Assembly: GCA_017506865.1 (NCBI GenBank)
Contig: JAFCMP010000554.1
Span: 310,001 to 374,000, forward strand
DNA length: 64,000 nucleotides
DNA from: Tribonema minus
Taxonomy: Eukaryota > Sar > Xanthophyceae > Tribonematales > Tribonemataceae
Direction: 5' to 3'
The notes beneath the pieces were generated by a model that was given only the letters and a program-made list of their open reading frames with translations, was not told the DNA's origin and searched no databases. Shown piece by piece: positions 1 through 47,158 of this stretch. The first letter of the stretch is position 1. Each line of letters opens with the position of its first letter. A program made the translations under genes and the position numbers.

Positions 1-354
1 ATCAACGCCGCGCATGTGCAACCGCTGGCCATGGCCTGTGCAGGACCTCTTTCGTCGTTGCAACATGCTTGTCACTGGCTATCGGAAGAATCGCCTCATC
101 TTTCCACTTCTTGAAACGCCATGGCTGCAGCACACATCTTGCAGAGCCAAATCAGATGAGACCTTGTTCGCATGTAGCACATATGCACGCTCAAGAGAGC
201 CAAAAAGCACACAAATCGACTACTTCAACTTGAAGTGTGAAAGTTGAAGTTTGATTTTTTTGCGTCAGGGTTCCACCTACACACCGGCTCCAGCAGTCAC
301 AGCTGTCACATTGGCTGCAGAAGAAAAGACGGACCACTGTTACCTAGTTGCAAT
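1..354. other. 5' flank of the SDH assembly factor gene
   Basis: No gene was recognised in this stretch. It contains several ACTTCAA / TTGAAGT motifs (about 224-250) of a kind scattered through the whole window. It presumably holds the promoter and 5' UTR of the gene starting at 355, but no core promoter element is convincing. Confidence 0.4.
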
Positions 355-2934: not shown

Positions 2935-5900
2935 CTATTGCTGCCGGTTTGGTGCTTGCTGATTGAGGCATACGATGATGCAGCTGCAATTGTCCGTGGA
3001 TCTGGTGGCAGCCTGCACATGAAGTTGGGGTAAGGGGGGCAACAACAGCGGCTGAGGTTGCATTCTGAGCACACTGAGACGTGCCAAGTGCTGTAGAGTG
3101 CTTCAAAGGCCGTTGCCACATCGATCTCAGCGGTGGATCGCAGTCTGCTGGTGATTTGGGGGGGGGGGGCATGCGTATACTTCAAAGTATCTGGGAGGGG
3201 GTGAGACAGTCGTGGCAATGTCATCATGGTGTCTCATTCGAACAGCACGTGATCAAGTGCAGATCTACCATACCGCATGCGGACTGAGACACTGGTGATG
3301 TGCGACGCCGCCCCATTTGCCGCATCATAATAACGTCTCATTTGAACAGCACGTGACCAAGTGCAGATCTACCATACCCCATGCAATCACTGAGACACTG
3401 GTGATGTGCGACCACCCATGTGCCGCAACACACACTGGAATGGTATACTTCTACAACACTGTCAATGCCAGTGGGTCTGCATTCATTTCACGGTAATTTG
3501 CTCACCTTGTCAGCGAGCTCCTTGCTAGCGCGCTGCACGTCGCGGTGCGCGAAGAGACGCCGCTGCACAAAGTTCACGGCACCCTGTGTTTGGGAGGGCA
3601 GAAGATCGATCGAGAGGTGTCAGCAGAGCACCATTATGGTCAGCATTTGCAGCGGAGTGAGCGCTTGTGCTGTCCATAGCTCACGGCCGCTGCACAAAGT
3701 TCACGGCACCCTGTGTTAGAGAAGGGAATATTGATGGAAAGGTGATGATTTTAGCAGATGACGGTGTGGCCAGCAGTCGCAGCGGAGTGAGCGTTGTGTG
3801 CTTTCCATAGCTCATGGATGGGAGCAAGGGGGCATGCATGCAGGTTTCTGTACAGCCCTGTGCACAGTGAAAGCGGCGCTACCGCCTTTGTGTATTGACG
3901 TCAATTTGGGCATCTAACTTACCCAAGGTCTGTCCTGGCCATCACCGGTCACGATGCACCTACACACTTGAAGGCATGTCGCTTGAATATACTTCACGAG
4001 TATTTGTGTACAGGCGCGTGTGGCATACCTGCAGGCCATGTGAAAACCTTGCCTGAGTGGCAAATGCACACATTGTCGGATGCAGGCATGACTTGACCGC
4101 TTCTATTTTCGCAAACACACTCTGATTCTATAATTTAAAGAATGCATCGGTCGCAAGCCTGATGCTCAAATCTCTTTCGTCTCAGAAATGGCAGTAATCT
4201 CGTGCTGGTGCTTACCTGGTCATGGACAACGTCCCAGATGCCATCGCTTGCCAGTATCATGAATTCATCCTCCGGTGACACCTGGCGAACAGCATAGCAG
4301 GGTAAGGGTCAGGGCTAGGGCTACGGTAGGGCTAGGGTCAGGAGTAAAGGGGGCATGTTGCAGCAGCCATCTGAGCAATGTGTGCACAACATGAAGCAGC
4401 CGCAGTGAATGCGAGGCTGCTGGTGTGGCAGAAACTCCTGGGTGTGTTGTTGATGCTGCTGCGCCTGCTGAATCTCGCAAAAGCCCAAGTAGATGTTGCA
4501 CATTTAGGTTACTGCTGCAGGGGTGAAAACATCATTGCTTGGTGAAGGGAAAGACGGCAATACGCTTTAAAAGTTGCCACGTCGGGGTGCATGGCTTGCG
4601 GCAGCTCATCACAACCGCTTCCGGCAAGGTGACGCGCAATGATAGCGACATCAAAATTCATCAAGTTTCCACCACATGTGCAGGTGGATGGCCTTTAATA
4701 TCAGCAGATTTTGGTCGTTGTGTGCTGTAATGCAGCCAAGCTGCAGCAGCGCTACCACTTGAGTAATTAGTTCAGTAGTGCGGCAATGCGCTTGTGGTAC
4801 AGGAAGTGGCAATGTGGCGGAGTTGAAGCAGCATAGTATGTCACAATGAGTGGTTCACTCTGCACAAATTAATCCTTTGTAACTTTCACATCTTATCGGA
4901 AAAAGCGAATGGTTGAATCCTGGCACCACGGCAGTGCCGGGCCTCGCAAGCAAAAGGGGCAGTAGTGAGAGTTTTACAACAGGGCAAGACTCACCTCAAA
5001 CGTGCATAGCTCCGGCTTGGCGATGATCTGTTGGTCAGAGCCCCAGAGCCCATCTGAGGCCAGAGGTGCGGGGCCCTCTGCTGTGGACAATGTGTTCCGC
5101 GGTGGGAACACCTGCAGAGAGTGCGGACAGCAGTCGTGTGCACTTGCGCTGAGTGTGCTGAGGCTGACATGAAGTGTCACAAGGGGAAAGCACATCTGAT
5201 CGCATGCATGCGTGCTTGGCACATTATCAGGAGGCAACGCAACACTAGATACTGCAGGCACGTACAGAACTTACAAAAAGTAACAGAGGGCAACATAACA
5301 CAAGCTACTGCAGGCACGTATTTGCAAAACGTAATCGCACCTATACCGCCCCGATGCTGACCCAGGATTGCAAATTCCACGCTTTCCAGTAGTTTTACTG
5401 CCATTGTTGCCCTGAGTTACAGCAGCCTCTAAGTAGACATCGGCAGCTGTGTGGCAGCGGACACGCTCTGCTCACCTTGCAGTGTATGTCGCGGAAGGAA
5501 CGCGTCACTTTGAGCACGCCGTTCACGCAGCCGCGGCTGACTACTCACAATACGTTGGTTAACCGCACAACAAAAAACTGAGCATGCAGTCCATGCTTTA
5601 TTGCAGTCTTACTGTAGTAGTTTGCCCTAAGTTGTGATAGCCTGTAGACATTGGCCCCTCTCTTACGGAGCTGACCTTGCAGTGTATATCGCCGAAGGAA
5701 CGCGTGACCCTGAGCACGCCGTTCACGCACCCGCGGCTGACGTAACCGCCCGCAGCCTCCACGCGCTGCGCCTCGTCCTTGCGCGCCGGCTGAGAAGCGA
5801 AATTCGAAGGCGATTTGAGCGTTTTGCATGACGCCATGCAAGTCCAGGGTTTGGGGTGCACGCTTCTCAACGGCAGAAGAAGTCCGTGCTTGTGCTGCGG

Positions 5901-8900
5901 TGTCTCATATTCGTGACATGGGGGTTTGTAGAAGCCCATGTGATTTAAATGACTGTAATACTGGATAAATGAATGTAATCGTTCATGTTCATGTCCGAGT
6001 GATGCAGTTCACGGTGCTCAACAGTGCTCAACGACGCTGCAACGCTGTATGCCATCCCCACACAGCAGGTATGTCGTCCCACAACTCACAATAGCCTCCT
6101 CCACCTGTCAATTTGGCGAACCATACGTCAATGTCAGTGGAGATGCTGGTACCCAGGTCCAAATGCTTCCGAAGCATCATTGCTAGTTGGACAGGTCATG
6201 CATCTGCTTGTGTGCCGAAGTAACTCGGCATTGCCATAAAGCGACCAGGGCGTGTACGACCCACTGCAGCGTCAGCTGCTATGCATGTACGTTCTGCCAT
6301 CTACCAACACACACGCCTTCCCCTCTAACAACCGTTGACGCACACACACGCAGTGTATGCATACACACATACCTTGTGATCGCTGGTCAGCGCCACCGCG
6401 CGCCCCCCCCCTGCCGACCACGCAGCGCATGCGCGTGTACCTTTTGATCGCAGTGCATGCATACCTACGTACCTTGTGATCGCTCGTCAGCGCCACCGCG
6501 CGCCCCCCCCTGCCGACCACGCAGCGGCAGTCGCCCACGTGAGCGACGTGCACAACGACCGCAGCGCTGCTCAGCGATCGGTACACCACGGCGAGCACTG
6601 CCACGGAGCCCGCAGTGCGCGCGCCGCTCGGCGCGAGCAGCGCCGGCAGCAGCGAGGGCTTGCTGGTTGAGCGTTCGAGCGCTGCCGCAGCCGCGTTTCT
6701 GAGCGAGCGGAGCAGGGAGAGGCGTTCGCGAGGTATGAGGCACTGTGCCTGTGCCGTGCGCTGCGTATGTGAGCGCTGAAACTGGCATTTGCGCGAAGTC
6801 ATGCACCATGTCAGACATGCGTTTCGCTGCAAAGTTGGCCTTCCACAGACGTGGTGCGCACTTCAGCAGCATGCGGGCGCCAGTCAGGATGGTGCTTCAA
6901 AGTACAGTAAACTCCAGCGCATGTTAGTGCTGAGAGTGGCGTAGCGTGCAAGCGTACTTGGCAGGGCCAAGTGGCAGCAGGCGGTGCTTCCGATGGTCAG
7001 GTGGTGGTGTCGTTGAATGCGGATGCACCAGTGCAACGTGCATTCCGCTGGGAGCGTGCACCTGAGTGAGGGTGGGCACATGCAACCTACTTTCTTGATG
7101 TACATGGCAGAGCTTATGTCATTAGAGCATTCATGGGGGATGTCAGTAGTAGATCCACAGGGCTCACGCCCCTACTGCACATGGGGGGTCGCTTTAGTGC
7201 AAATTGCGTATTTCACGGATGAAATGCAGCAATTCTTGATCTCACCTGGCCGTTTCCTGGCGTGCAGCGTAGTCCTTGCTCAGGCACTGCATGTCCACAT
7301 CATATGTTGCCTCAAGGATGGCACGGGAGCGGTCCTCATGAAACGCCTGCACAACGGACAGCGCGCGCGATTCAACTGAGAATTGCGCAGGTTTTGGGCT
7401 CCAGCGTGAGTGGGCACCAGGAGTGGTGGTCTGCTCCGTTGCGAGCATGGCGGCTGCTGATCATGACGAAGCAGGCTATGCAGGCTGGCTGGCAGCGTTT
7501 GAAGCATGGATGAGTGCACACGCGGGAGGCAGCCTGCACCACTCCCCTGCATCATGTACGAGTCATCTGCTTCAACAGTCATAGTCACTCTGAGCCGGCC
7601 CGAGTTGAGAGCACTCCCTGAGCCCCCCGCCCCCCACCCCACCCCCCGGCCCTCTAAGCCAGCCCGACCAGCCTCACAACAGCGCCTGACAACGCCCCCG
7701 CCCGCCCCACCCCATATTCCCACGCACACATGTGTAGCGTACCGTTTCTGCAGCCCACTGAGGTCACGCTGCGCGACACTTACAGTCAACAGTTACAGTC
7801 GACAGTTACGGGCGACAGTCACAGGCGACAGTTACAGGCGACAGTTACAGGCAGCACCTGGTGACGACAGCCCTGTGCAGCTGCACCTGCAGCGCCTCCG
7901 CAACGACACTCACAGTCAACAGTTACAATTGACAGTTATAGGCGACAGTTACAAATAGTTGACGCACCTGGTGCGTGACGATGGCCCTGTGCAGCTGCGC
8001 CTGCAGCGCTTCTGCAACGCTGTCACCGCCGTGCCCGTCGTACACGCCAAAGTAGGCGGCGTGCCCACGGTGGCAGTTGTCCGCGCGCCACTGCGCCTCC
8101 TGCGCTGATGCGCAGCCCTGTGCGCCAACGCAGTGGGCAACAGTTTATACTTGTGCTATGAGTATTTGTGCGACGTGCAGAGCATGGAGTCACACGGTCT
8201 CGGGCTTTTCAGAGTGACTGGCCGCAAGCAAGCATTTGCGCGTCTGATCGGTGAAGAGCGCAGGGTCACGGGTCGTCCTCCTTCCGCCAAGGCGTAATTC
8301 AATGGGGAAGGTTCGATGATGAGTGCGTTACTGGGCGACATCTATTTGCGAGTGATGCGTACACACAATGACATGAGGGCCTGTGGATCACGATGAGCTT
8401 ACATGCACAATAGAGGAAGCAGTATTTCAAGTCAGTGTCCATCATGCAGGGTCAAGTCCCCCATCTGCACCCCCTTTTCTGTGCCTGCTGAACCTCGTGG
8501 AGCAAAGTGCAAGTTTGCGCGAACCTAAAAAAAACGTCCACTTGCTTTTTGCACTTTAAGAGGGGTGAGTCCACAGTCCACTCTCGTAGCAGTGACAAGT
8601 GCTGGGCTGCGCTGGTGGCGGCAGCATCATATGTAGGGTGCTAGTGTTGTGGCATGCGCAGCGGCCTCAGGCAGCTATGCAGAGTGCGCGTTTGCCACTG
8701 ACATGTTACCCTGCACCTTGTGTGCAGAAGATTCACACAAACTTCTCTTGTCACGCACAAGACATCATCAGTCACACTTCAACCGCACCAAACGCGTGCG
8801 GGCTGCACACAATAAAACACCAGATTTTTTCTGGTGCACGTGACCTGCTACTGCTGTCGCCGCTGAGAAACATGAGCACACTCCAACACAGGTGCAACGC

Positions 8901-10306: not shown

Positions 10307-10815
10307 GATTGCGCTGGACTTGCACTTGAAGATACAGCTCAAGCTTGGAGCGGTGGGCTGGCAAGCATCACGTGGCTGCAAGTTTTGCTGTTGGCCACGG
10401 CTGATCTCAGTGAGCACACATGCGCACTGCAATACATTTCCCAGCACTTGGAGAAAGCACATGCCCGCAGTCAACGGGGGTGCGAAAGCTCAATTACGCG
10501 ACAAACCCAACATCGAATCATCCATTGCAATATGCGGGATCGTCCATTGCAACTTTACAAATGTCCCTCGCCTTGTGAGTGTTGACGGTCGCCTTGTAGA
10601 CTTCTGGCTTGGAAGCTGAAATGGTGAAGTTCAATTGCACAAAAACGCAACATCGCATATCTACCCATGGGGTCATCAAGTACAACTCTGCAAAAGTCTC
10701 TTGCCTGGTGGTTATTCATGGTCGCCTTGTAGGCTTCCAGCTCCAATGCTGATATGGTGAAGTTCAACTCCACAAAAACGCAACATTGCAATCTACCCAT
10801 GGGGTCAATTTTCTA
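10307..10815. repeat. Intergenic spacer with two echoes of the kinase gene's last coding exon
   Basis: Between the kinase stop (10816) and the PP2C start, the segments at about 10681-10757 and 10553-10620 repeat the end of the last kinase exon ([18 protein letters not shown] in the first; frame lost in the second). The spacing is about 130-150 bp. The spacer must also hold the kinase 3' UTR and the PP2C promoter. Confidence 0.8.
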
Positions 10816-13800
10816 TTACAACTTCGCAAAGTCCCTTGCCTGGTGGTTGTTCATGGTCGCCTTGTAAGCTTCCAGCTCCAGTGCTGATATGGCATGCAGC
10901 TCCGCGCCAAATGACTGGGCCATAGCGCTGTTGGAGAAGGCCTCATCTAGAGTATCAGTTACATCCTCAACATCGCTGCGCAGCAGAATAGACCACAGGG
11001 TGAGGGGAGTTGGGAATTGCAAAAGCATGTCGATGATTCGGGCAGTGTAGTCTTCGATGCATGAGCTGTGCATATGTGCCATGGCGCTATTCGAGAAGGC
11101 CTCATCTAGGGTATCGGTCACATCCTCCACGTCGCTGCAATGCAGACGAAAATCACAGAGTCATTGTAGTACAAGGAGAGGGGGGACTACAAGAACATTT
11201 CGAGACTATTTGGCAATGCAGTGTTCAATGCGCAAGCTTCACAGCCGAAACCCTATACTTCTGTCGACCGAGAGCAGCAATTCGATGACCTTCAAGAAGC
11301 AGGTTTCATCATGCAACTCACGTGAATCGCGAGCGTGGTACAAGTGAAGTGCAATTGTCACCAACATTGAACCCTGAAACCGAGCACTGGTTCAGTTAGC
11401 TCATTGTACTTTTGTACCGACACGTGCATCACAGACCGACAATCCGTGATCCGTGAGGCTACGTATTATAAATACAATCCACGTAGTTACGCAACTTCAC
11501 CTGTGAGCTTCATCAATTGTACTGTTGCGCCGACATGAGCATCACAGACCGAGAAACTGTGCTCGCGATGCCGCCATAGTTATGCAACTTCATCTGTTAA
11601 CTTCATCATCATCATCACGCGACTTCACATGTGAATTTCATCGTCATCAGCCTCGTCGCTGCCGCTGCTGCTCATAATGTTGCCACGAAAATACGCATGT
11701 TGCTGCCACAATCTCAACAGGGAGAGATCATTTACTCTCTAAGGATGGACCGTCCACATGACAACACAGCACAGTATCACAGACCGGGAGTATCAAAGAC
11801 CGAGGAACTGCGCCCCGTTATGCCACCAGTCACGCAACTTCACCTGTGAAGTTCGTCGTCATCAGCCTCGTCGCTGCCGCTGCTGCTCATGCTGCTGCTG
11901 CTGCCGCTGCTCTTGGTCTGCATCATGGTCGCGCCAGGCACGGATGACAGGTCACGCGCGCGGCCGCTGCTGCTGCGCCGTGCCTTGGGCCTGTTGAACT
12001 GATGCTGAAGGCTGCAATAAACGATGTCGGTTCAAGCGTGGTGGTGGGGGGGATTTGGTCATTGGCGGAAGGCATTTGCAGCTACGTGACCACATCTTGT
12101 TACCTAAAGTTCTTCCATCTTTTGATTCGTTTCCATGTGGTAATTGTGGGTGAGGTGAGCAGGGGCTGCTGCACCTCAGCATGATGAAGTGAACATTGCA
12201 TTGTCGATCTGAATGGCAGAAACGATACTGCGGATCGCAACATCGTCAGCGCCGGCCACGCTTCGGCACCGTGACACTGATCGCACGACGCTGCTCGTAT
12301 GGCGCCGCGCTCCGCCGCCATCTGTGGCCAGCGCAGCGGCCCACCGCTGGCTGTCGCATCGCCATCAACGCTCGGTCATGAGCAGAAACTGTGTTGCCTA
12401 CCAGCTAGGGCTCTGCTGCAGTTGCGTGCCTCGTGTAGGGTTAGGGATAGGGTTAGGGTTAGGGTTAGGGTTAGGGTTAGCCCTAACCCTAAGCCTGTAC
12501 CTTTTCAGCAAGTGATGGCCCTACGCTGCTGCTTCCCCAAGTCTCTCCGCAAAAACTCAGCATTCTATACCAAATGCCTCTTCCCCGACGTGCAACTCGC
12601 AGGCACACCCAGGAAAAGCGGCGCCCACCTGTCAGCGCTGCTGCTGCCGCCGCTGCCGCTGGTCGCGGCGGTGTTGTCGCTCTCGCTGCCATCGCCATCA
12701 GACGCTTTCGAGTCATCGCTGCTGCTGCCGTCCTCCGCGCCGGGCTGCTCGTTGATCATCCTGAGCGCTGATGCAGAGGAAAAAGAGTTGCCGCCGAGCG
12801 CGCGGCGCGCGAGGCCGGCGCTGCTGCCGCTGTGAGCGCTGCCATCGTCGGGGGCGGTATCAGCGTCTGTCGAGCAAGGCGATAAGAACGCAAAAGGAAG
12901 GAAGTGGTGAGCACAGGCCGGTATCACCAATTGCCGAGCAAGGCGACGAAAGAGCAAAAGGAAATAAGCGGTGAGCACAGGCCGGGGCTGCTGCCGCTGT
13001 GAGCGCTGCCATCGTCGGGGGCGGTCTCAGCGTCTGCCGAGCAAGGGGCCAAGGCGATGCAATGAAAAGGAAAGAAGTGGTGAGCACAGGGTGGTAAGAT
13101 GACGTACGTGCTGGTTCGCACAACACCCCAGCGTCGTCGGTTCCGGTTCACCAAGAGTTCATGTAAGAAGGCCATGCCACTGTCTGCCAACTGCGCTGTT
13201 TGAGGTGCTCTGGCTGCCTGTACATCTGAACTTGGTGATGATCCAGCCACCCACCAATTAAGCAGATGGGGTCATTACTGCTTGTGCTTTCGTACAAGCC
13301 TGAGCTCGCATGGGAGCAGGTGGCATTGTGCAGCGCCGCCACTGCTCTAAGAGTTCATGCAACATTGCCCGTGAGCAATTTACCAAGTACAACCATCGTG
13401 GCTGCAGTGCCCTGCCAAGGACAGTTGCGGCGTGCACATATTACACCAAAAAAGCACAGGAGCTGCCGGCAGTTACTATTACAGTTACACTGACCTTGCA
13501 ATGCGACGCCGCTGCCGCTGGACACTGCAGTGGGCGCCGTCCTCTCGTCAGAGTCCATCAGCATCGAGTTGTGGCGGTAGTTTGTGTAACTGTCAGTGGC
13601 ATCATCGTCGTCGCCAAAGTCACGGGCCAGAGACGCCTCCGCTTCCGCCCTGTGCCAGCAAAAATGACAACAATAATGACAACATCAACAATTTTGGTGA
13701 TGTCCGAGTGATCAAAACATGTAGCTGTATCTGCCGACGCCCAACTGTGACCACGATGCACAAGCGATGCCTTCGCTTTCGCCGTGCATATTGAATTCTG

Positions 13801-19376: not shown

Positions 19377-19408
<32 letters not shown>

Positions 19409-22400
19409 TGCCGTCGCCGCCGCCGCCGCCGCCATCGTATTCGTCAGCACCGTCGCACTCCATATCCTGCGGCGGCGGCGGCGCCGGCGGCAAGTCGTCC
19501 GCAAAGAAGACGCTGCGGCGGCGCGACCCGACGCCGCTGTGCAGCCCCCCGCCCTCGCCCCCCCCATTACTGAGCGCTGCCGCAGTGGCGGAGCCGCCGT
19601 TGTTGCCGTTGCTGCCGGCGCCGTTGTTGAAGGAGAAGGCGGAGGCGGGGGAGATACTGGAGAGACTGTGGGAGGGGGTGTGGGGGTGGGGGGAGACGCC
19701 GCTGATGCCGCCCCCTGCGAGCCAGCTGCCCGTCACGGAGAAGGCCGAGGGGAGGTGGTGGGTGGCGGAGGCGGCGGCGCCCGCGGCGGCGGCGCCGTTG
19801 TTGTTGGGGGACATCTCAATGACGACCTGCGGGGGGGACGGAGGTCGTTGGCGGTGAGGTCGGTGGCGACCAGAAGGGCACACTTAACATTTGGAGTCGT
19901 CTGACGCGATGCCTAATCCTAACCCTAACCTTCAGCGGTGCTGCGCACGGCAGGGCAAAGCAGCACTTGGCCGAAAGTGCAGGTGTAGGAGCCTTAGACC
20001 GTTGACTCGATGCAGCGCATGCAGTCGCTGATAGCAAACAGGGCTTCAAACGCCATCACACGCGCAACCCTGCATTGGACGACCCTGCTGCCTCAAAGCT
20101 ATACAACTACATGCTTCAATGTGAACACAGAAAAGCCACGTTTCGTCTTGCAACCATGATTGCCACTTCCTTCACACGTGTCGCAGGGACGTACCTCCAG
20201 AGCGTCAGACATGTTGGACGGCGGCAGCGCCGCGCGGTTGTCCATGATGAGGGCCAGCGTCTCTTTGGGGAGCTGAGCGCTGTAGCCGTAACCGCTGCCC
20301 CGCTCCTCAGGGGGTACATTTGCGTCCCCGCGCCTCCCGTTGATGGGCAGTGTTGTTGAGCATCGCACGCCAAACTGTCAGTGGAAGTGGCAGGCACGCA
20401 GTGAGCGATTGGTCAGCATGCGCAGTTTGATGGCCATCAGTATGGGTGCTTGAGTACTTGGCACTCGCTTTCACTTGTGGTGTGATGGTCGTTGGTGAAA
20501 CAGTGTCGATAGAATTGGCAGGCGTGCAGTCAACGATCATTGAGGATGCGCACTTCGCACTTTAGTGCTCGCCAGTAGCGGTGCTTTCACACTCTGTCAA
20601 AGTAAGATTGATGGCGTTTGTGAAGCATGACACCTTTGCTGCTAGTACGTTGGCAGTAGTTAAGGACTATTTCCAGCGACAATGTTTGCAGGACACTGAG
20701 CTGTGTGCTCGCTTACGACAAACTGCCATTCCCATGTTGAGCCTGTTGTTTAGTGTGGGGTGCACCATGTCAAACCAGCGGTACAAGGGCCAGCCAGAGC
20801 TGGGCGGACTTAAGAGGTTAGGTTAGGTTGCTTAACCCTAATCCTAACCCTGTCCCTAACCCTGACCCTAAGCTCAGCACCTCATTTACGGCGCCATTGC
20901 ATGTCCGAAGAGTGTCAAAGAATGTAAAATATGGCAGCGCATTCACACATGCCTACCCTTCATACCCTTCATCGCGTCCGCGCGCATCAGCACAGGCAGG
21001 CACCGCTGGCACCACTACTGACATGAGCGGCGCATCACAGCACAAGACCTAACCCTAGCCCTAACCACAACGGCACTGCAGCTCGAAAGGCCTTGAAAGA
21101 CCGCCGTGGTGTTCTAAGGTTGACAGCGCACAGCTCAGCTCATGTTGAGGTTGGTTCCTATTGGGCACAGACGTGTCTGTTTATGTTTGCCTCCCGGTTC
21201 TCAATTATCACTCCTTCTAGCACCACATGCACTAGCTACGAGTCTTGCGTCTGCTTGGGTCCCTCGGATGTCCACATCTGGCACGGCGGTGAGCAATACG
21301 CTCTCAAGGGTCAACAGCATGCACTACCTGCAGCTCCATTCCGCTCAGCAGTGCCTGCAGAACTTGGCTGAGCGCTGCTGCCGCCGCCTGCTCGGCTGAG
21401 CGTTGCTGTGGTGGCATACATACCTACCTGCACCTCTGTTCCGCTGAGCAATGCCTGAAATCTGGCTGAGCGCTGCTGCCGCCTTGCTCCGCTGGGCGTT
21501 GCTGTGATGTTACCTACCTACCTGCACCTCAGTTCCGCTGAGCGATACCTGAAATCTGGCTGAGCGTTGCTGCATGCGGCCTGCTTTGCTGAGCGTTGCT
21601 GTCATGGGGATCAACAGCAGTGCGCAGCGGCGCGCACCTGCTCCGTCATGTGGCGCCGCGTGCTGCGCGCGTCATTGGCATTATTCCTATTTGATTGGAA
21701 TATTTCACCACCGACAACGATTAATGTCATAGAAGTAGTACTTGACAAATTTTGGCCAGGCTTCTTTGCTGTGTGGATTTGTCACTTACGATGCTCTGGG
21801 GGTCAACAGCAGTGCTCAGCGACGTGCACCTGCTCCGTCATGCGCCGCCGCACGCTGCGCGCGTCCCTGGCACTCATGCTTGGGTTAAGGTTAGGGTTAG
21901 AGTTAGGTCACGCTGCCGTCGCGACCCTAATTACAACGTCACTGGGGCGTGAAAGGCTTGCAAACGCCGCCGTGATGCTCTAGGGTCAACAGCAGTGCTC
22001 AGGGGCACGCACCTGCTCCGTCATGCGGCGCCGCGTGCTGCGCGCGTCTTTGGGGCTCATGCTTGTCAGGCTGCCGCCGTGCAGCGTGCGTTTCTTGAGC
22101 GTGCGTGACGCAGCGGACCCGCTGCCGTCCCGGTCGCCGCTGCCGCCGCCGCCGCGCGCCGCTGCGTTGGAGGAGTGAGCGGAGTGGCGGCTGCTCCTGC
22201 GCAGCGATAATTTAATTGCAGCGACGGTACAAGTGGGTCAGACTCAATGCACATAGAATGGAACCCGGAGAGGTGATGTGTGTGCCTCATTTTAAATACG
22301 TCGAGCGCCTGTGCAGCGGCAGAAACGTCAGTTACCGTTGCCGTCCCTGTCGCCGCCGCCGCCGCGCGCCGCTGCGGTGGCGGAGTGCGCGGAGTGGCGG

Positions 22401-24300
22401 CTGCTCCTGTACATAAGGAAATAAGCCGCAGCAATTATAATAAATATATATAGCAATTATAATAAATATATATAGCAATTATACAGGCGGGTCAGACTCA
22501 ATGCGCATGGAATGAAACCCGGAGAGGTGACATGTACACCTCATGAACGTCGAGTGCCTGTGTAGCAGCAGAAACGTCAGTTATGAGGCTATCTGGGGCA
22601 CTGTACCGCAATCGCGTTTAGTGGTCAACTACAACATGCATGCCTGCCTGCCCGGCGCCGCAGCTGCTATGTGAAATATGGCAAGTACCTCGAAGCATAT
22701 ACTGCAAAGTAGATGAGTGGCACTGACCCGTGCATGGACGACCCTTGGCATAGACACGACGAGCTTGGCAGTTTACACGCCACATACAGCAAGTCCTTCA
22801 AAAGCAAATACTTCATGCAAGTACATCAACTATATATACTGGCACTGACCCCTGCTGAGACGAGCCTAAATACAGCGACAAGCTTGAGTACATTGAAGAC
22901 TTTAGAAGTAGACATACGTTGAAGTATATGTATAATGGCACTGACCCGTGCAGAGACGAGCTGGGCGTGCCGGCCTGCCCCTGGCTGCGCTGGCGCGGTA
23001 GCGGCTGCGGCGGCGACGCGGCTGCTGCTGCTGCTGCTGCGGGCAGTGGCGGCCTTCTGCCGGGCGACGACTTGTGCGCCTGTTGGTCTGCTGCTGCCGT
23101 GTTGAGAGGCTCCGAAGGTTGGGCAAGAGGGGGCCGTGGCTGTGAGACAGGGACGGCCATGTTGACGGCAGGGGACAGACACAGAGGGAAGTGAGACTAC
23201 CCCGGTTGCAGGTGGGGGGTGGGGGGGGGGGGGATGTGCAGGCGGCAAAGTGCGATGGAGAAAGCAGTGGGCAGCCTCAGCTCGGGTTTAATGTAGCCTG
23301 GCCTGCAGCACAGCACACACTACGACGCATTGATTCACCAACTAATGGCATGACATTTCTCGGCATGCTGCGAATGGGTCATATCCAATGCGTTTCTTCT
23401 GCCATCTGCAGTGTCCTAGCATGACCGTGCAGTAGGTGGTCAGCGTGCAGAAAAAGGGAGGATTTGTCCTGCAGCCCCGAGTCGACAGGTGTCAGGTATG
23501 TATTTACAAGAAAACTTCAAGTGTCAGGTATGTGTTTACAAGAAAACTTCAAGGTGCCGCGATGTCCCCTTAGTTCAACAGCACACAGGCCCAACGGTGC
23601 CGCAGCTGAACCCTGCTGCGGTGCAGCACAATCATAGGTCATAGAAGTATGTACTTCAATGCCATGCTGCACGCTTCAGATGCCCGTCTTGAAGTATGAC
23701 TGACCTGAAAGTTGAAGTTGGGCTTTGGCAGTGCCGAGAGCACCTCAGCTGGCAGCTGCGACTGCGCATGCGCGCCAGACGGCGATGCGGGCTGCGTGCT
23801 GCGCCTGTCACACAAAGCAGCACACCGGTGACAAACACACTTGTTAGCTTAGCTGAGTGCCACAAGGTGAAGCAGCGCACCAGTGAAGCAGCGCACCAGT
23901 GACAAACACACTTGTGAGCTTACCTGAGTGCCACAAGGTGATGTGCCAAGTGCAATACCCTGTGGACAGGGTTGCAGTCGAGATAGAAAGCAGACAGCGC
24001 AACGCATGCCACACTGAAAATTGTCCCCACTGCTGTAACTTTTGCCGCAGCTGCATGCAAATTGCAGCATCAACTACTTCTACATAAATTGTCGGGTTAG
24101 ACCTTCAACTTCGTGGTGAATGTTAAAGTGAAGCATGAAGTGTTCATGTTCAAGTGGACAAATTGAGCGGCCCATGAAGACGCCTACCCGTGCCCCGAAG
24201 CAAAGCCGCCATCGCTGTCCTCCATGGCCAATAGGCGCAGCGCCGCTTCCGCAGCTGCATTGGGCGTTCGCATGCCACCGCTCGGAGTGGGCACCCATGC
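10816..24300 (-). CDS. Giant kinase: C-terminal low-complexity tail (exons ~26-44)
   Basis: Exons supported by phase: 24300-24188, 23804-23705, 23139-22946, 22196-22013, 20374-20195, 19826-19294, 18324-18069, 17468-17368, 16542-16444, 16057-15971, then 14534-14479, 14369-14328, 13649-13495, 12866-12629, 11990-11844 and 10975-10816 (TAA). The block at 15463-15404 and 14985-14893 is uncertain. One frame there is Cys-rich (RCLKCHCK then HCNILDLN), but it does not join in phase to the exon at 16057 without another exon. The tail is rich in Ser, Gly, Ala and Asp. It includes poly-Gly and poly-Ala runs, basic-Ser motifs ([25 protein letters not shown]) that look like kinase sites, and a final helix-prone segment ending [11 protein letters not shown]. 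No domain was recognised. Confidence 0.72.
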
Positions 24301-27300: not shown

Positions 27301-30300
27301 TACTCACCTCTGTGTGCATGATGGCTTTCTCGAGGTTCTGCTGCCCTGCTGCCCACCATGGCGTCTTGCCCGCCACCATCTGCAAGTTGAAGTTGACGCA
27401 GCAAACACCGGTAGGCAACACAGATTAACATATAAGTCAACGTCAGGTAGGTGCACAAATCTGCAAGCCAGGTTCACGTATCTGCGACCAGTCATGGTGG
27501 TTGTGCAAGCCATGATGATGCATCCGCTTAAGCAATCTGAAGCACTTGCTACTTGCTTAAAAGACAAAATGCCCAGCACGTGACAACCACTCTCAACATT
27601 GATACATCACCTGATACAGAGTCACACCCCATGAATGATATCATGCGCATACATGAGGCGCCTATAAGATTGATATATCACATGATACAGGGTCACGCTC
27701 AGCGCCCACACGTCGCTGGCGGGGGTGATGTTGCTTTAGGGGATGCGGCGTAGTAGAAACGAATGAGAGTGTGCGCATACATGAGGTGCCTATAGAAATG
27801 ATATATCACCTGATACAGGGTCACGCCCAGCGCCCACACATCGCTGGCGGGGGTGATGTTGCTGTGGGGATGCGGCCCAAGCAGTTCGGGCGCCATGAAC
27901 GCTGCAGAGCACATGGAGCAGCCATAATAGCAGCGTCACAGGGTGAAGATTGCAGAACTGATTGAAGCGGACAAAACACGTGAAGCAGCCCAGGTAGCAC
28001 GGTACATGGACAAGCTTGCAGAGTTGTACAATGTGAAAGAAATGCTGTAGCTCATCCTCCACAAAGACTGCAGTACTGCGTGCGGTGGGATGATACTGTA
28101 GCTCACTGGCTCAAGAGCAAGGAACTGCACATGCGATTCATGCGGTCCACCGCAGTCCTGATCTGGTGGCTAACAGGTAGAGTGTCAGCGCCGATGCCTG
28201 CGTGCGCAGTCAAGGTATCACGGGTACGAATGCCGCAGGTAATATACTTGCACAAATGTATGTGCAGCATCCCAAGAACCATCAGCAGCTACCAGTGCCT
28301 GCGTTCATTTTTACTAATGTATGGTTTGCCATGGAAATATGGCGGGAAAAAATAAACTGATGATCGCACAGAAATAGCTAAGGCATCGGCAGCAGCAGCA
28401 GCAATCAGCTGCACTGCTGACTTCATCACGCATTGCAAGGCCTAAGTGCGCGCCATGTGGTCTCATCCTAATCTATACTTCCTTCAAGGTAGTATGTGCA
28501 CAAACTTGCATGTTCGCCTCATGCTCATGCTGCAAGTTCATGTTCAAGTTCATGTTCGACTACAGCCATGTTCAACTTCATCTTCACGTTCACTCGTGCC
28601 GGAGCGTCACACACAGTCGCTCGCAGGCCACCAAAGCCGCACACTCACACTACAAACACCCACAACACCACCAAACAGACACATCAGCAGTGCTCAGACG
28701 CACCCGGGGTGCCAATGAGGGGGACGCGGTGGGGGTTTGCCCCCACCCTGTACAGACAGATCAGCATTGCAAAGACGTACCCGGGGTGCCAATGAGGGGG
28801 GCGCGGTGGGGGTTTGCCCCGTCACACCCCGACGTGCTGCTGCCGTCGCTGTCATCATCGCTGATGTTGATAGACGTGTGCGCCATCACTATGGTGCCGC
28901 CGGCGCTGCTGCCTGTCCCCGCTGCTGCCGTCTGTGACAGCGCGTTGACGTTGTGCAGGGACTGGCCGCGCTTGAGTATCTTGCTGGCGCCAAAGTCGCT
29001 GATCTTGACGGTGCCGTCGGCGCCTGCTCTTGCAGTGAACGCCAGAAGACGCCAGGAAAAAAAGACAGTACTTCGTGAAGTGTGTACATGTATGGAAACG
29101 AATCAAAAGATTGTAGAGCTCTAGGTGACAACGGAAGGGGTGTATATAAATACTTTGTTGAGATTTTGGGAGAGATGAACCAAGCGCAGCACCTGCTCTT
29201 GCAGCGAATGCCAGAAGAGGCCAGAATAATATATTTTATGGGGAGCATTTAATCAAGCACAACACCTGCTCGTGCAGTGACCGCAAGCAGAGCTGAGCGG
29301 AAATACTGATTGGGGGTCGGAAGAGTTAAATTCAGTTCTAGAAGATGCAGTTGGCGTCGTCATGCCAGTGGGGCAGGACCACGTTGGTGTGTCAGGAGCA
29401 GCCTCAGGGACTGCATGGGCATTCGAGGACAGGAGCGCCGCCGACAGACCAGCAGAGGTTTCAATGTCTGGTGTGCAACCCTTGCAAGAAACATACTTTT
29501 GAAGTATGTTAACTCATGAACTGACACCTCCAACTAAGCGGCTAATCTAAGTGAGTGTTTGCGCATGGGTTTGTAGTGGTCTACGCAGACTAATGGCACG
29601 CGCGCTTGTGCAAGCTCAGCCGGCTGGGCTCATGAGTCTTGTGCTTGGAGTGCGTTTCTTACAACGCTGAAGCACAAGCAGTAGTGATTGCATGCAGTGC
29701 TGAGCACAAAGCGGTGCCTGTGACACGTGTTCTGAAGCTGGCCACAATATTGGGCCTCTGCCCGCTCGAAGCTACTGGAATCGGAGCCTTGGAATGAAGC
29801 CTTAGAATCAAGCGTAAAGTAAGCAGTGTTCTGTGCTGGAAAAATTCGGCAAGTTGACAGTCACCAAATCTGGACACATGTATCTTTGCTGTGTTGCCAC
29901 AATAAACACTGAGTCAATGACAGCATGAAACAGGCAAGGGTGCCACAAAAAACAGTGAGTCAAAGACAGCGTGAGTCGAAGACAGCATGAAGCAGGTTTA
30001 GAGAGCTCACCTCACAGCAGGTTTGTTGTTGCAACAAATGAGAGTCCAAGACAGCAAGAAGCAGGCAAGGGAGCTCACCTAGCAGCAGGTTTGCAGGCTT
30101 GATGTCGCCGTGAATGATGCCGTGCATGTGCAGGTAGTGCAGCCCGCGCACCGCGTGCACAAAGTACTGCCGCGCTTCATCCTCAGGCAGGGGCGTCACC
30201 TGCAGCCATCAGCGATAACAATACAAAGGGTCACAAGAGGCAAACATCTTGGCAAATCAGGTTTGATCATCGATCTTGAACACTCATGGGTTGCTACGCC

Positions 30301-33300
30301 ATGAATGATGCCGTGCACGTGCAGGTAGTGCAGCCCCCGCACCACGTGCGTACAAAGTACTGCCGCGCTTCATCCTCAGGCAGCGGCGTCACCTGCAGCC
30401 ATTAACAATAACAAAAGGATGGGACACGTGAGGAAACATCCTGACAACCCAGGTATCATTATTGATCTTGAACACTCACGGGTTGCTACAACAAATTGAA
30501 GAAGGGAGAAGTGACCGCCGCCTGTAGCCATCACCAACGATCATGAGATAGTGTCATTCGAAACATCCCGACAACCCAGACATTATCATCGGGCCTATTG
30601 AGGTGTTGCAACAAATCGGAGCGGAATTTCGTGGCTTTATCGTACCTACAGGATGCGACAAACATTAGTAGATTACGAACTTGGGGTTATGTAGGGTCAA
30701 GGTAAAAAAAAGAGAAGAGCGCGCTGAAGCACACAGAGTCACACACAGAGCACTGGAAGTGCTGGCAGCCTTGCAGAGTGCACGCTAAAACGCAAACATG
30801 CCAACCTGCAGCCAAATGGCAGGTAGATACCTGATATGACCCTGGCAGTATGGTGCCCAGCTCCATGTACTCCTGCACCATGTACACTTTCTCACCCTGC
30901 AGATAGGCACAAGATGGATCATACAGAAATGAATTGCACTGATTGATTGAGTCCCCTTTGCAGTCCATCTGTGCAGTCAATCATCTCGTGTCTGGCATGG
31001 ATATTTTGGACGCAGGGATAGCCCCATGAATCGACATAAATCGTGATTACATGCAGCGGTCGCGCTGTATTGACAGGCAAGCCTCACCAGTGGATACATA
31101 TATATACTCAAGAGCAAGATAGTGGATTTTGTTGCTGAAGAGAAAATCCAGCAGCTAACCCTAACCCTAACCCTAACCCTAACCCTGAAAGCGTTCTCAG
31201 AGCAGCACGGCGCCATGGCCACCACTCAGTGCGTGCATGCAGGTAGATGCAATCTGGCATCTCACAGCGGGCGCATATGTACGCCACAGACAATACGGCC
31301 GTGATGATGATATTGTCACAAATGAACACGAGGCCCGCATCCGCAGAGGTCAAGTGAGCAAGTACTTCAAGTTGAAGTATTGAGATGCGGTCTTCTGCGA
31401 CGCTCACGTGCTCACCCTCACAGGACAAGCAACGGTGATCCAACATGTGTGGTATGGTAACGCAAAACAGTCACGTCAGTATCACCACCTGCGTGTGGAG
31501 ACGAAATACGGGCTGAGTGCGTTGTGGCATCCTGAATGCCACTTTTGACCAAAAAAACTTTGCGAAATGCAACGACCAACCACAGACCTTGGGGTCGCTG
31601 ATGCCCTCCAGTAGGGTGACGATATTTGGATGGCGCATCTTTTTGAGCGCTGCCACATCACGCCTTCTGGCATCCTGAATGCCACAATTGACTTGACGAA
31701 TGCATTGACAAACCACAGACCTTGGGGTCATTGATAACCTCCAGCAGCGTGACGATATTTGGATGGCGCATCTTTTTGAGCGCTGCCACCTGACGCCTCA
31801 GCAACTCAAGTATCCTGAATGTCGCTAGACTTCGCGAACACATTGACAAACCACAGACCTTGGGGTCATTGATGACCTCCAGCAGGGTGACGATGTTGGG
31901 ATGGCGCATCTTTTTGAGCGCTGCCACCTCGCGCCGCAGCGACTCTAGCATCTGCGTCCCGCGCTTGCCGCGCTGCTTCTTGTTCAGGACCTGTACAATT
32001 GAAGAAGACATAGGCGCATTAGAAGGTGCTGTCAGGAGCCAGCTCTGGCAGTGTTTCACTATGACTAAATGAAGCACAAGCGACCATGAGACAAGCTTGT
32101 GCTGGGTCATTATTGCACCAACATTTGCGCGGCAGAGCAGCGTGCACAGGCTTACGGGTAGCTCATTCTTGCGGGCGACACAGGGACACGGACACTTGTT
32201 CACTTTGGTTATGCAAAAATTGTGCAGCAGCGTGTGCTGACACTCGCAGGCCATCGGCGACATTGTGAGCTTCACTTTGGACCTTCAACACGCTAATATC
32301 GCAGCCTGGTAGAACCACTAGTGCACACCTACACACGTCTGGAATAGCTGCTGCGCCGCAGCTTTCCCCCAACAGCACAGGATACAGCAGTTTCAACAAG
32401 TGCCCGTGCACTCTGGAGAAAAAAATAACTACATCCACTTGCCTTGATGGCCTTGAACATGCCGGTCTCGCGGTCAAAGCACTTGTACACGCTGCCGTAG
32501 GAGCCGCGCCCAATCTCCTCCCGCATCTCGTACTTGCGGTTGATGACCTTGGTCCCCTTGCCCTCTCCCGGCCCCACCTCAGCCTGCGCATGCACGTGAC
32601 GCGACATCACAGCTGTCAGAAACAGCAAAACATGCCACATATGCAGCCAGATGAGTGACTGTTCATCAAGTTACGGGCGCCGTACAGATGCACGCCTGCA
32701 CCCGCGGCAGATTGCATCATGTCTCTCGTCACCATCAAACGCGTGGGACCTTGATGCCCTTGCCCTCTCCCGGCCCGACCTCCGTCTGCGCATGCACAAG
32801 ACTGCAGCAACGGTGTAAGCGCATGTGGACACAGCACGAGGTCCGCGCACTGGAGCGTCGCAGCGGAGCGTCACCAAGGTACGGAAACAGCTCAAACTTC
32901 ATGTCATGACAGCGAACCGCACCTCCGCCTGCGCATGTGCATGGCAGCAGCAACGGTGTCAGCGCGCATGGGAACAGCAGGCGTCAGTGCAGTTGGTCAT
33001 CACAGAAGCGCCTGAAAACCCGAACATCGTCACATCGCGGCAGTCAGAAACAGCAAAGCATAGGAGTCCCACATGTGCAGCCAGATGACTGACTGCCTGT
33101 TCGTAGAGTTTCATTGGCACAGCGCAATGTCACTGCATGTAGATAGACATAATGTACCCGCGGCGGCTGCACAACATCTCATGTTAACATCAGACGCGCA
33201 GCAACACCCGCGCTACCATAAAACGCGCAGCAACGCAACGCAACGCAACGCAGCGCCACGCCGCGCCCGCCCCTCACCGTGGTGACCTTCTTGAAGCTGT

Positions 33301-36300: not shown

Positions 36301-39300
36301 CCAGCAATCACGTACTTCAAAGTATTCAAGAAATGATTGTTGTCGACAGACATAAGAAGCGGGAGGCTGGTCGCGCCAGCGGCAGGAGGGCGAGGGTTTA
36401 GGGTCAGATTAGGGTAAGGTTTAGGATAGGGGTAAGGGTTAGGATGAGGGTGCAGATTAGGGTTAGGCTTAGGGTTTGGGCGCCGGCGCGGCGCCCCGTG
36501 AGCAGGGACTGCAGCAAGCGGGCATGCTGCCAGTGAGCATCAACAATCTGGAGGAGGTGGTACGCAACGTGATGAGGGAGCCTAATTTTTTTACCTAACC
36601 CTAACCCTAACCCTAACCGTAACACTAGGGGCGGCCGGGTTGCGGTCGTCGGTGGTCGGTGGTCGTACCGCAACCCAGACCACCCCTGGTGATCATCGCC
36701 CTCCTTGTGCTCCTTCATTGCCTAGCGTACCACCTCCTCCAGATGCTCCCGCCAGTGAGCATTAACGACACACACGTGACAGGTCCACCTGTGGCGTCCA
36801 TGCGCCACTGCTGAGGTCCATGTGCCTCATCATGTTCGCACCTATCGTGTTCGCACCTATGGTCCACACAGGCAAAGTGAGGCATTGCCAAGACCCAAAC
36901 GCGGCCTTCAGTGCTGCACTGAGGCGATTAAACTGATGAGCTTGCGCACTTGGAACCTTGTGTATGCCGTCACATACCCCTACATACCTCGCAGTTACAC
37001 TTGCACACACGCCACATCCTCCGCGTCTCCCACGCTGCACTCGCATACGCATGATAACAACTCTGCTAGGCAGTGCAACAGCCCCTTCTCCTCCCCCCCC
37101 ACACTCAACCCAGTCACCCACCCTACCAATGACGACACCAGTCCTGTATTGTTATTACCTCGGAGTCTTTTCGCTTTGGGCGCGAAAAGCCCGCTCCTGC
37201 ATCAGTCTTGCACCTTCTTTGTGAGCAGGTACATGCGGAACGGCGCTCAGCACTGATACGTGACCACAACTCTGCTGAGCACTGCAACGACCACACGCTA
37301 CATACCCCCTCCCAACAATCGACCAGACACCCCCTGTACCAATGACACCACTCCTGTACTTTTCATGAATTTTCTCGCTGAGCGCGTGAAGAGCCCAGAC
37401 GGGTGAATGTCCAGCTTGCAATCAGAATCTACATGTGTCTGGTTGTGATTCAAGTACTTGAAGTACCTTCTTTGTGAGCAGGTACATGCGAAACGGCGCC
37501 CAGCTCTGGTGCGTGCCCAATGACACCAGCCTTGTACTTTTATTGATTCTCGCTCAGGGCGCGATAAAGCCCAACACTTTGGTGAATGTCGCGTGGCGCC
37601 CAAAAAGCCCTCTCTGCATCAATTTTGTACCTTTTTGGTGAGCAGGTACATGCGGAACGGCGCCCAGCTCTGGTACGTTCCCGCGGGTGCGCGCACGGCA
37701 TGCACCGCAGTGGCCGCGCGCACCGACGCGCCGCGCGTGCAGGCCGCGTTGCAGATCAGGCCCTCCTCGCCAAAGTAGCGCCCCGCGCCCAGGCGGTTCA
37801 CCTGCATCAGCGATCAGCGCGAGGGGGCGTATGTATGTGTGTATGTGATGAGTGGATTGAATGCGGGGGGTATGTGTGTGTGTGTGTGTGTGTGCACGGG
37901 GGTATGTATGCATGTATGTGGTGAGTGAAGTGAATGAAAACGAATCAAAAGATCGTAGAGCTCTAGGTGACAAGGGATGGTTAGGCGCATGCTATTATGG
38001 GCGGTTCACCTGCATCAGCGCTCAGCACGGGGCGTATGCATGTACTTTAAAGTGTGTATGTATGTGCTGAGTGAATGCTACTGGGAGGTTCCCCTGCATC
38101 AGCGCTCAGCGCGGGGCATATGTATATATGAATGCATGTATGAATGTGCTGAGTGATGAATGTGCTGAGTGAATGTGAATATAAATGCTAGCGAGGTGGC
38201 AGTCGGTGCTGCAAAGGTGAGGGTCAAGGGAGTAAGGGGGGGATGTGTAGGGGCGCTGGCAGTAATAAGCGCGCTGCCGCTGCAGTACACAATACAACGT
38301 ATACATTCCGCCCCCAAACACAATGTATGAAGGTGCAGCAGAGTGTCACTGTTTGGCGTGCAGCGCACCTCTTTCTCGGTGCCGCCGTAGCCCTCCTGCA
38401 GAACTTCAACACTGGTGTCTTGGGGTCCCACCACAATGTAGAAGCCGTCCGCCGGCTCATCGCGCTGCACAATGTAGTCGCCTGGGTTATACCTGTATAT
38501 ACATACATACATACATACATACATACGCATCAAGAGCGTAGCGTTAGCACACAGGTGTGCCTCGGGTGTCGAGTGCCTCGGGTGTCGAGTGTCACTGGAA
38601 AAGGCCTGCATTTGCGGCGTACAATGCAGCTAGGCTTAGTGAACGTGCTTGCTCGAGTACAGAGCAAAGCGGCTGCGGGCATGCAATGCTCAGCAGTACA
38701 TACTTAGTACACAAGTGCATACGCATCAAGAGCTGAGTGTGTTAGCACACAGGCGTGCCTCGGGTGTCAAGTGTCACTGCAACAGGCCTGCATTTTTTTT
38801 TTGCGGCGTAAGATGCAGCTGGGGGACGTAGCAAACGTACTTGCTCGAGTGCAGAGCTACATGGCTGGGGGGATGCAGCACTGCTCTGCGGAGTAATGAC
38901 ATGGTCATTCGACAATGGCTCTGAGAGCGTTGTGGCTGATTGGCTTGGGATGACGCACACTCCCCTTCCATGCGTAGAGTGCAGTATGCATGCAAACAGG
39001 CGATTTGCACGCTTCGCATCAGCACACGAGACTTGCATGTCGATTGATTTGCCTCCTTCGCTGCAGCCGTTGCACATGTCTCTACACACATGCTGCAATG
39101 CGGAAGATCATTAGCAGGCGCACAGAGCCAGAACAAGCTCAAGTACTTCACTCTGCATGAATATTGCAACCTGAAAAAAAAGTGTCATGTCAACTTGAAA
39201 AAAAAAGAGTATACATACATACCTGACATCCTGCAGGCCTCTCAGTGCCTCGGCCTGCTTCTGTAGTGAAAGCTGGGCAAAGTGCAGGTCCTCTATGCTC

Positions 39301-47158: not shown

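Follow-up and report, generated by a model that had tools for sequence, protein, structure and literature searches.

Decaying local copies of exon edges in introns of the xanthophyte Tribonema minus and their association with interstitial telomeric tracts

Tribonema minus belongs to the xanthophytes, within the PX clade. We studied one stretch of its 158-Mb assembly (554 contigs), a 64,000-bp piece of contig JAFCMP010000554.1 (positions 310001-374000) that is called the window throughout. Its minus strand carries PP2C exons (joined, Pfam PP2C E=4.4e-50), a protein kinase domain (Pfam E=1.3e-57) and cyclic-nucleotide-binding exons, which when joined match Pfam cNMP_binding in two stretches (E=4.2e-32). 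The cyclic-nucleotide-binding, CaMKK/GRIK-like kinase and PP2C exons follow each other in a row between 3500 and 41000 and may form one gene or several. Many introns carry one to four decaying copies of the adjoining exon edge, in the same orientation and a few hundred bases off, either singly or in nested arrays. These exon echoes, their state and their likely origin are the subject of this study.

Two sets of exons were used. The homology-supported set covers five genes, namely the PP2C, kinase and cyclic-nucleotide-binding genes of the window and the genes at two loci elsewhere (L020 and L021). Its exons were fixed via homology and splice-site reading; kinase exons were located by tblastn with Phaeothamnion and other kinases, and the joined PP2C and cyclic-nucleotide exons were checked against Pfam. 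Five hand-set exons of the window have an edge that is 1-2 bases off, below the 6-bp margin applied. The predicted exons come from a purpose-built hidden Markov model (HMM) gene finder, plus three kinase exons placed by hand. The finder was trained partly on kinase exons, so that its recovery of eight of nine exactly, and of the ninth with a different 5' edge, is not an independent test. Beyond the window, 14 non-satellite 10-kb loci were picked by contig number from long contigs only, one of which (L018) shares the window's contig. Four further loci (L019-L022) were picked from the kinase-match table for partial kinase matches, blind to repeats. L001-L003 are window pieces or the sole outside match and were left out of the locus counts. 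L016, positions 1-3500 of which form a satellite-like tandem array (repeat about 400 bp, 98% identity), was left out of the orientation, tract-correlation, gap, adjacency, side-rule and TTGAAGT counts, the last of which also omit L006.

Self-alignment of the window by BLAST yielded 75 pairs with E<=1e-3, of which 62 are direct and at most 800 bp apart, 5 are inverted and 8 are direct but distant. Every example of an exon echo cited in the initial annotation was recovered: 31587-31803 as 31519-31814 paired with 31662-31952; 30299-30396 as 30297-30489 with 30106-30297; 24784-25140 as 24779-24842 with 25097-25161, plus neighbours; 6371-6436 as 6349-6427 with 6449-6526; 5475-5545 as 5470-5541 with 5670-5741; 37212-37517 as 37212-37266 with 37465-37519 and 37463-37518 with 37627-37682; 21634-21880 as 21608-21678 with 21983-22053 and 21790-21882 with 21974-22065; and 22330-22412 as 22335-22583 with 22119-22334. 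Across 19 stretches (236 kb), 181 pairs at most 800 bp apart were direct and 6 inverted. With this ratio the copies are both local and direct, as short tandem duplications made during break repair are expected to be. When only the nearest pair per family was taken (n = 80), the aligned length amounted to at least 0.9 of the spacing in 35 families and to less than 0.6 in 33, with 12 in between. This count is preferred to that over all pairs (115 of 179 below 0.6), which includes non-neighbouring array members. The proposed local duplication of junction-straddling segments therefore holds as far as direct orientation, proximity and a frequency far above chance are concerned, but simple adjacency fails in those 33 families. 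Assembly error, which had been named as an alternative, is unlikely because the majority of copies differ by 5-30%.

Among the homology-supported exons, 19 of the 22 duplication families cross an exon/intron junction, and 20 of the 68 junctions have copies. For comparison, a forward simulation let tandem duplications arise at random alongside deletions and substitutions, kept exons under constraint, discarded events that would break an exon, and was scored with the same BLAST. It produced 8.5 junction families with a median unit of 130 bp and 10.5 with one of 170 bp; 19 or more were reached in a fraction of 0.00000 and 0.00015 of 200,000 draws, respectively, and 9.1-9.3 junctions bore a copy. 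The match to the loci is rough, with a coverage of 0.38 simulated versus 0.49 observed at L021 and 0.15 versus 0.11 at PP2C. Earlier simulations had given a junction share of 0.23-0.33 (single events) or 0.41-0.58 (whole genes). The claimed excess over random tandem duplication is thus borne out: families cross junctions about twice as often as in the simulations, though not exclusively, and how large the excess is varies with the model used.

Using predicted exons, 20 of the 31 families between 2,900 and 47,200 cross a junction, compared to 11.0 ± 2.5 for shifted families (P=0.0005). These families touch 20 exons, of which those at 18529, 25350 and 41940 are doubtful, as they were called on the opposite strand. 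Restricted to the homology-supported exons of the window (PP2C, kinase, cyclic-nucleotide-binding), 12 of 14 families cross a junction and 13 of 50 junctions are copied. The statement in the initial annotation that at least 20 exons have copies accordingly stands if predicted exons count, and falls for homology-supported exons alone. At other loci, junction families among predicted exons exceeded the shifted ones at L009 (6/8 vs 1.8), L017 (5/9 vs 2.5) and L018 (4/5 vs 1.5), and there was no excess at L007 (2/4 vs 1.6) or L016 (1/4 vs 1.6). With exons masked, duplication coverage was roughly flat with distance from exons, up to 400-600 bp in the window and further in the other loci.

The position of the copies follows a rule of sides. 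In the five homology-supported genes (38 mapped copies), all 25 donor copies lie downstream and all 13 acceptor copies upstream, just as had been described from the window at the outset; with HMM exons and more loci, 49 of 58 pairs obey. This rule is the geometry that lets a junction-crossing tandem copy persist, because a tandem copy elsewhere would break the exon. In a donor-crossing duplication the first copy must stay joined to the exon and in an acceptor-crossing one the last, which fixes the sides. The rule of sides gives no clue to the mechanism. Coordinates are collected in Table 1. Apart from these features, the window encodes a spliced HIT-domain protein at 47.4-48.2 kb (96% match to a T. 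minus protein), and an Rfam scan of the window returned 0 matches above the gathering threshold.

Table 1. Exons, exon-edge copies and telomere-like tracts of the window
Feature	Position	Strand	Basis and remarks
Kinase exon K3, functional	31859..31990	-	donor GTCTGT; tblastn, edges read, HMM
Donor-side copy 1 of K3 (exon 3' end, donor, early intron)	31718..31816	-	same open frame as K3
Donor-side copy 2 of K3	31574..31664	-	90.1% over 91 bp
Kinase exon K5, functional, catalytic loop	30079..30199	-	tblastn, edges read
Acceptor-side copy of K5 (intron 3' end, acceptor, exon 5' start)	30297..30489	-	86% over 194 bp, spacing 191; adjoins its source; extra base breaks frame
Donor-side copy of K5	29973..30025	-	84.9% over 53 bp
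Kinase exon K2, functional, GC donor	32443..32583	-	tblastn, edges read, HMM
Acceptor-side copy of K2	32747..32797	-	self-BLAST; further copy: 32921-32979 paired with 32778-32836
Kinase exon K6, functional	28781..29023	-	tblastn, edges read, HMM
Donor-side copy of K6	28675..28743	-	91.3% over 69 bp
Acceptor-side copy of K6, 36 bp	29189..29224	-	self-BLAST; weak older copy at about 29251-29292 (E 0.08-0.99)
Kinase exon K7, functional	27810..27901	-	tblastn, edges read, HMM
Donor-side copy of K7	27633..27749	-	88.9% over 117 bp; remnant 27600-27629
Kinase exon K9, functional	26669..26764	-	tblastn, edges read
Acceptor-side copies of K9, unit about 72 bp	26824..26975	-	self-BLAST
PP2C exon, functional, RVTRSFGDIHCK	5676..5789	-	Pfam PP2C E=3.5e-10 alone
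Donor-side copy of PP2C exon 5676..5789	5470..5541	-	90.3% over 72 bp; 128 bp from source, whose part includes 6 bp of intron
PP2C exon, functional, HMM edges	6473..6760	-	HMM and joined Pfam
Donor-side copy of PP2C exon 6473..6760	6349..6427	-	92.4% over 79 bp
PP2C exon, functional, GVYDGHGG	7968..8099	-	HMM and joined Pfam
Donor-side copy of PP2C exon 7968..8099	7800..7905	-	75.9% over 116 bp
Last modelled PP2C exon	3506..3583	-	HMM
Acceptor-side copy of PP2C exon 3506..3583	3686..3817	-	78.5% over 135 bp
Cyclic-nucleotide-binding exon, functional	37632..37801	-	HMM; hand-set 3' edge, one base off in computation
Donor-side copy of exon 37632..37801	37463..37519	-	91.1% over 56 bp
Second donor-side copy of exon 37632..37801	37212..37266	-	89.1% over 55 bp versus first copy
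Acceptor-side copy of exon 37632..37801	38000..38043	-	self-BLAST; another at 38084-38134
Two donor-side copies of predicted exon 22013-22161	21608..21882	-	91.5% and 86.0%
Copy across acceptor of predicted exon 22013-22161, pairs with 22119-22334	22335..22583	-	68.8% over 260 bp
Local direct repeat set by weak predicted exon 25320-25424	24779..25357	-	self-BLAST, HMM
Interstitial telomeric tract (TTAGGG)n/(CCCTAA)n	12436..12495	.	inside dispersed repeat
Interstitial telomeric tract, K3-K4 intron	31155..31186	.	TRF
Other telomere-like tracts	20833-20871, 36398-36476, 36594-36627, 43630-43664	.	TRF

Divergence was measured in 58 pairs of a functional exon and its copy (HMM exons; 11 of 69 pairs were dropped for less than 10 bp of exon or intron). 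Exon parts differ by 10.2% (3,061 bp) and intron parts by 15.7% (4,975 bp). The resulting ratio of 0.65 is what we expect when one partner is dead and evolves neutrally while the other, the exon, is constrained to about 0.3 of the neutral rate. The differences comprise 141 synonymous and 171 nonsynonymous changes (21 and 15 in the eight kinase pairs). Gap bases amount to 62 per 3,061 aligned exon bases, which is below the neutral-copy model, and to 527 per 4,975 intron bases. Splice dinucleotides are intact in all 13 acceptor copies and in 22 of the 25 donor copies (11 and 19, respectively, before correcting 1-2-base offsets in five rows). We estimate this retention, which alignments crossing junctions themselves favour, to be about as expected at such divergence, so that it is no proof of use. 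The copies that were read carry a single exon edge rather than a complete exon, and some have stops or a frameshift. The copies thus look dead and appear to decay largely neutrally. They do add length to introns, as the initial annotation had considered; neither the decoy role that it also raised nor a regulatory one is supported, since the divergence ratio fits dead copies and dinucleotide retention is about as expected.

Young copies are few. Among pairs of at least 60 bp, 7 of 171 reach at least 95% identity, that is 4.1%, where uniform ages would give 13.6%; the L016 satellite array accounts for two of the seven, and the six duplication-rich stretches contain a single one (L020, 95.5%). 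Hypermutation resembling repeat-induced point mutation was rejected as a cause of this scarcity (transition/transversion 0.95, no cytosine-to-thymine excess), and near-identical arrays present in the assembly argue against a general collapse of young copies there. Separately, at L007 the 3' end of a predicted exon, with donor, is present three times (7128-7178, 7503-7582 and 7639-7718). Two of these copies (80 bp) are 98.75% identical, the third is at 90-92%, and the 56-bp gap between the two contains an inverted repeat. The young pair ends with AG|GT at both copies and is possibly a new intron.

Echoes are distributed unevenly over the genome. Once telomeric tracts had been masked, the 14 contig-number-picked loci ranged in duplication coverage from 0 to 0.40, with at least 0.25 at L009, L017 and L018 (25-40%) and at most 0.09 at the other 11. 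Within the window coverage was 0.19 in the first 47.5 kb and 0.03 (2.9%) from 47.5 to 64 kb. Given this latter value and the 11 poor loci, the pattern is patchy, not general; calling it unusual refers to the contrast inside the T. minus genome. Of the four kinase-picked loci, L020 and L021 are duplication-rich, L019 and L022 are not. Contamination was discarded as a cause of the patchiness, as the duplication-rich L020 and the poor L004 share a contig, and duplication driven by GC content is weak as a cause (0.555 GC in duplicated noncoding DNA vs 0.537). A genome search for allelic copies of the rich loci listed only short repeat matches. Elsewhere in the assembly, contigs C90/C179 and C144/C223 show collinear kinase matches at similar spacing, which suggests haplotig or homeologous contigs by which the duplications might be dated, and a dispersed repeat of 180 bp occupies L009 562-741, with 89-94% identity at the 39 top-ranking places listed. 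The heptamer TTGAAGT/ACTTCAA occurs 198 times in 18 stretches (226 kb), versus 18.8 from base composition, in duplication-rich and duplication-poor DNA alike. It was rejected as a breakpoint motif, with 21 of 680 repeat ends nearby compared to 19.6 expected.

The duplication-rich DNA is also marked by tracts of TTAGGG, which we take to be the telomere unit of the T. minus lineage. Six duplication-rich stretches (93.5 kb) hold 83 TTAGGG-like tracts, versus 1.0 in mononucleotide shuffles. Over 20 stretches, tract-masked duplication coverage correlates with telomeric-tract clusters (Spearman 0.93, P=4e-9), and equally so in the 14 contig-number-picked loci alone (0.93, P=2e-6); for duplication families per 10 kb the value is 0.82 (20 stretches). 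In 1-kb bins of the rich stretches, loci pooled, coverage was 0.328 with a tract (33 bins) and 0.203 without (60 bins; P=0.004). Repeat ends lie near TTAGGG hexamers in 44 of 555 cases vs 27.9 by shift (P=0.0015) and near longer telomeric tracts in 33 of 535 vs 22.0 (P=0.02), and a tract lies in 25 of the 133 gaps separating copies vs 16.3 (P=0.03). For the tract at 12436-12495, empty sites were found. Its host, a dispersed repeat at 12389-12586 of the window (about 48 + 80 bp), has matches on many contigs and is uninterrupted in 6 of 6 fetched copies, all of which were selected for both pieces being listed close together. In all 14 copies with both pieces listed these are 17-32 bp apart, compared to about 70 here. 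This single tract is hence an insertion into an older repeat with loss of about six bases, as telomeric insertion in break repair would leave it.

The locus L021 shows how echoes and annotation can meet. Over all 255 residues, its kinase model matches P0139, an annotated protein of T. minus, at 100%, and introns 3, 4 and 5 contain its repeat clusters (2360-3005, 3104-3748, 3843-4636, 5305-5871 and 6137-6886), each of which includes an exon edge. The P0139 annotation draws residues RWVQETLSAQSNVHTHR from a copy at 6335-6385, though the contiguous copy at 6837-6965 is open, and apparently enters that contiguous exon through an internal acceptor; this is either real splicing or a gene-caller error. 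In intron 5, degenerate TTAGGG-like DNA precedes four of four copies of the D' exon tail, as judged by eye.

The echoes and their geometry, a largely neutral decay, the co-occurrence with telomeric tracts and the one telomeric insertion were observed directly. We consider it probable that error-prone repair of double-strand breaks left the echoes behind and that they gathered in introns, the breaks themselves being what we infer as the cause. Short local duplications would recur when staggered ends are filled in and then joined, with some gapped or templated insertions. Duplications within exons would be purged by selection. Survivors crossing a donor would keep their copy downstream and those crossing an acceptor upstream, so that copies would accumulate, lengthen introns and decay without function. 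Repair would occasionally add telomeric TTAGGG repeats, and both marks would then accumulate in the same introns. The two-fold junction excess might, tentatively, stem from breaks preferring transcribed exon edges, which would thus break more often.

Several observations weigh against an origin in break repair. Random breaks do not predict the two-fold junction excess (19 of 22 vs 8.5-10.5). The families lacking adjacency even in their nearest copies (33 of 80) make plain tandem duplication insufficient and call for templated insertion or later change. The scarcity of young copies makes production look slowed or episodic. Nine of the 58 predicted-exon pairs violate the rule of sides; in three of them one copy was itself predicted to be an exon next to the other (12979, 22336 and, on the acceptor side, L018 9239), and the remaining ones may be wrong-strand exon calls. 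Within the window, bins with a tract are barely richer in duplications (0.213 vs 0.193) and most telomeric tracts lie, by eye, away from repeat ends. The link between duplications and tracts, seen in comparisons unmatched for intron content, may partly reflect that both marks gather in old introns.

Breaks or template switches could instead be targeted to exon/intron junctions by transcription, R-loops or polymerase paused at splice sites, the junction bias itself then being the mechanism, which we regard as possible if rather unlikely. The 19 junction families compared to 8.5-10.5 simulated and the predicted-exon excess at L009, L017 and L018 argue for such targeting. So do the intron-only families found with exons masked, which touch exon edges in 18 of 30 cases vs 8.6 (window), 12 of 24 vs 5.4 (L009, L017, L018) and 5 of 8 vs 2.2 (kinase), with a null biased low by truncated lengths. 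It is countered by L007 and L016, which are without excess, by the roughly flat exon-masked coverage, and by the rough match of the simulation, which lacks low-complexity DNA and whose null may be low (a high-density run reached 0.58). An unlikely reading is that tandem duplication is unbiased and copies are recognisable only where a conserved exon anchors them. Exon parts of pairs are indeed less diverged and the rule of sides is automatic, but simulations with exon constraint and an equal or equivalent score cut-off, the whole-gene and forward ones including deletions and BLAST as well, give a share of junction families of 0.23-0.58 vs 0.86 observed, and intron parts are still recognisable (mean 15.7%), so that pure-intron copies of that age should show. 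Survival from deletion was rejected as a source of the junction bias, the 527 gap bases per 4,975 aligned intron bases being judged too few.

Copies serving a function, as tandem cassette or mutually exclusive exons or as decoy splice sites under selection, appear very improbable. The retained splice dinucleotides, the residues that P0139 takes from a copy, the single open frame of K3 and its first copy and the synonymous lean of the kinase differences (21 vs 15) would agree with a function; nevertheless, the copies are mostly partial with one splice site absent, frameshift and stops are present, and both the ratio of 0.65 and the overall 171 nonsynonymous vs 141 synonymous differences fit mostly neutral decay. 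We give hardly any credence to intron birth through tandem duplication (the AGGT model) or to a mobile intron element. The L007 pair (80 bp, 98.75%) with AG|GT at both copies and the dispersed short repeats of some loci point that way. However, the homology-supported genes splice at a separate acceptor further downstream instead of at the AG carried by a copy, and their functional donors and acceptors belong to different exons rather than both splice sites coming from two copies. Against a mobile element, echoes look local: in a search that skips very common words, the matches to an echo-rich query of 2 kb were the query, its own repeat and a single 70-bp stretch elsewhere, lying in exon K5. 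Finally, break repair as favoured here has a bolder form, which we think quite unlikely: transcribed exon edges would be preferred sites of breaks mended by a telomere-type pathway (telomerase addition, C-strand fill-in, end joining) that copies the edge and often TTAGGG into the intron, and repeated rounds would grow introns outward from splice sites. If true, this would be a mechanism of intron growth linking gene structure with telomere-like break repair.

Intron lengthening, and with it the long introns of some lineages, is usually credited to transposons. In T. minus, some introns are made up to a considerable extent of decayed copies of the exon edges that flank them, so that intron growth by local duplication can be read copy by copy, and through the telomeric tracts a link from break repair to intron size becomes testable. 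The copies also put look-alike splice sites beside the true ones, a natural test of splice-site choice, and they are a trap for gene annotation, given that the annotated P0139 appears to use one. Single duplications over intron/exon borders are already known; the pervasive arrays and the telomeric link appear to be new, as we found no report of either in searches of an open-access library, which lacks most subscription papers.

Among known systems, tandem exon duplication and mutually exclusive exons also repeat exon sequence beside the original, whereas the T. minus copies mostly hold one exon edge and decay. Introner elements are likewise an odd intron change in a protist-type genome, but they are dispersed, while the echoes are local copies of their own exon (as judged from one 2-kb query). 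Natural rice insertions were reportedly described by Vaughn and Bennetzen in 2014 as small tandem duplications from staggered-break repair. Fill-in of staggered breaks by CST/Pol alpha-primase yields such small tandem duplications (PMC8355091). Like these, the echoes are local, direct, tens to hundreds of bases long and require no mobile element; they differ in that at least a quarter of the bases is involved in some T. minus loci, and in separated copies, arrays from the same junction and telomeric tracts. The potato RdRp gene has a tandem duplication across an intron/exon boundary, whose segment likewise holds intron 3' side, acceptor and exon 5' side (PMC4974935). There, a single recent case made a new intron; in T. 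minus there are many, and they fill existing introns. In mammals, telomeric tracts are inserted at breaks, sometimes with target duplication (PMC2246262). The T. minus tracts resemble these mammalian interstitial telomeric sequences in being short runs of TTAGGG, one of them an insertion by empty-site comparison with few bases lost, and differ in their density of 83 per 93.5 kb of duplication-rich DNA and in occurring together with local duplications.

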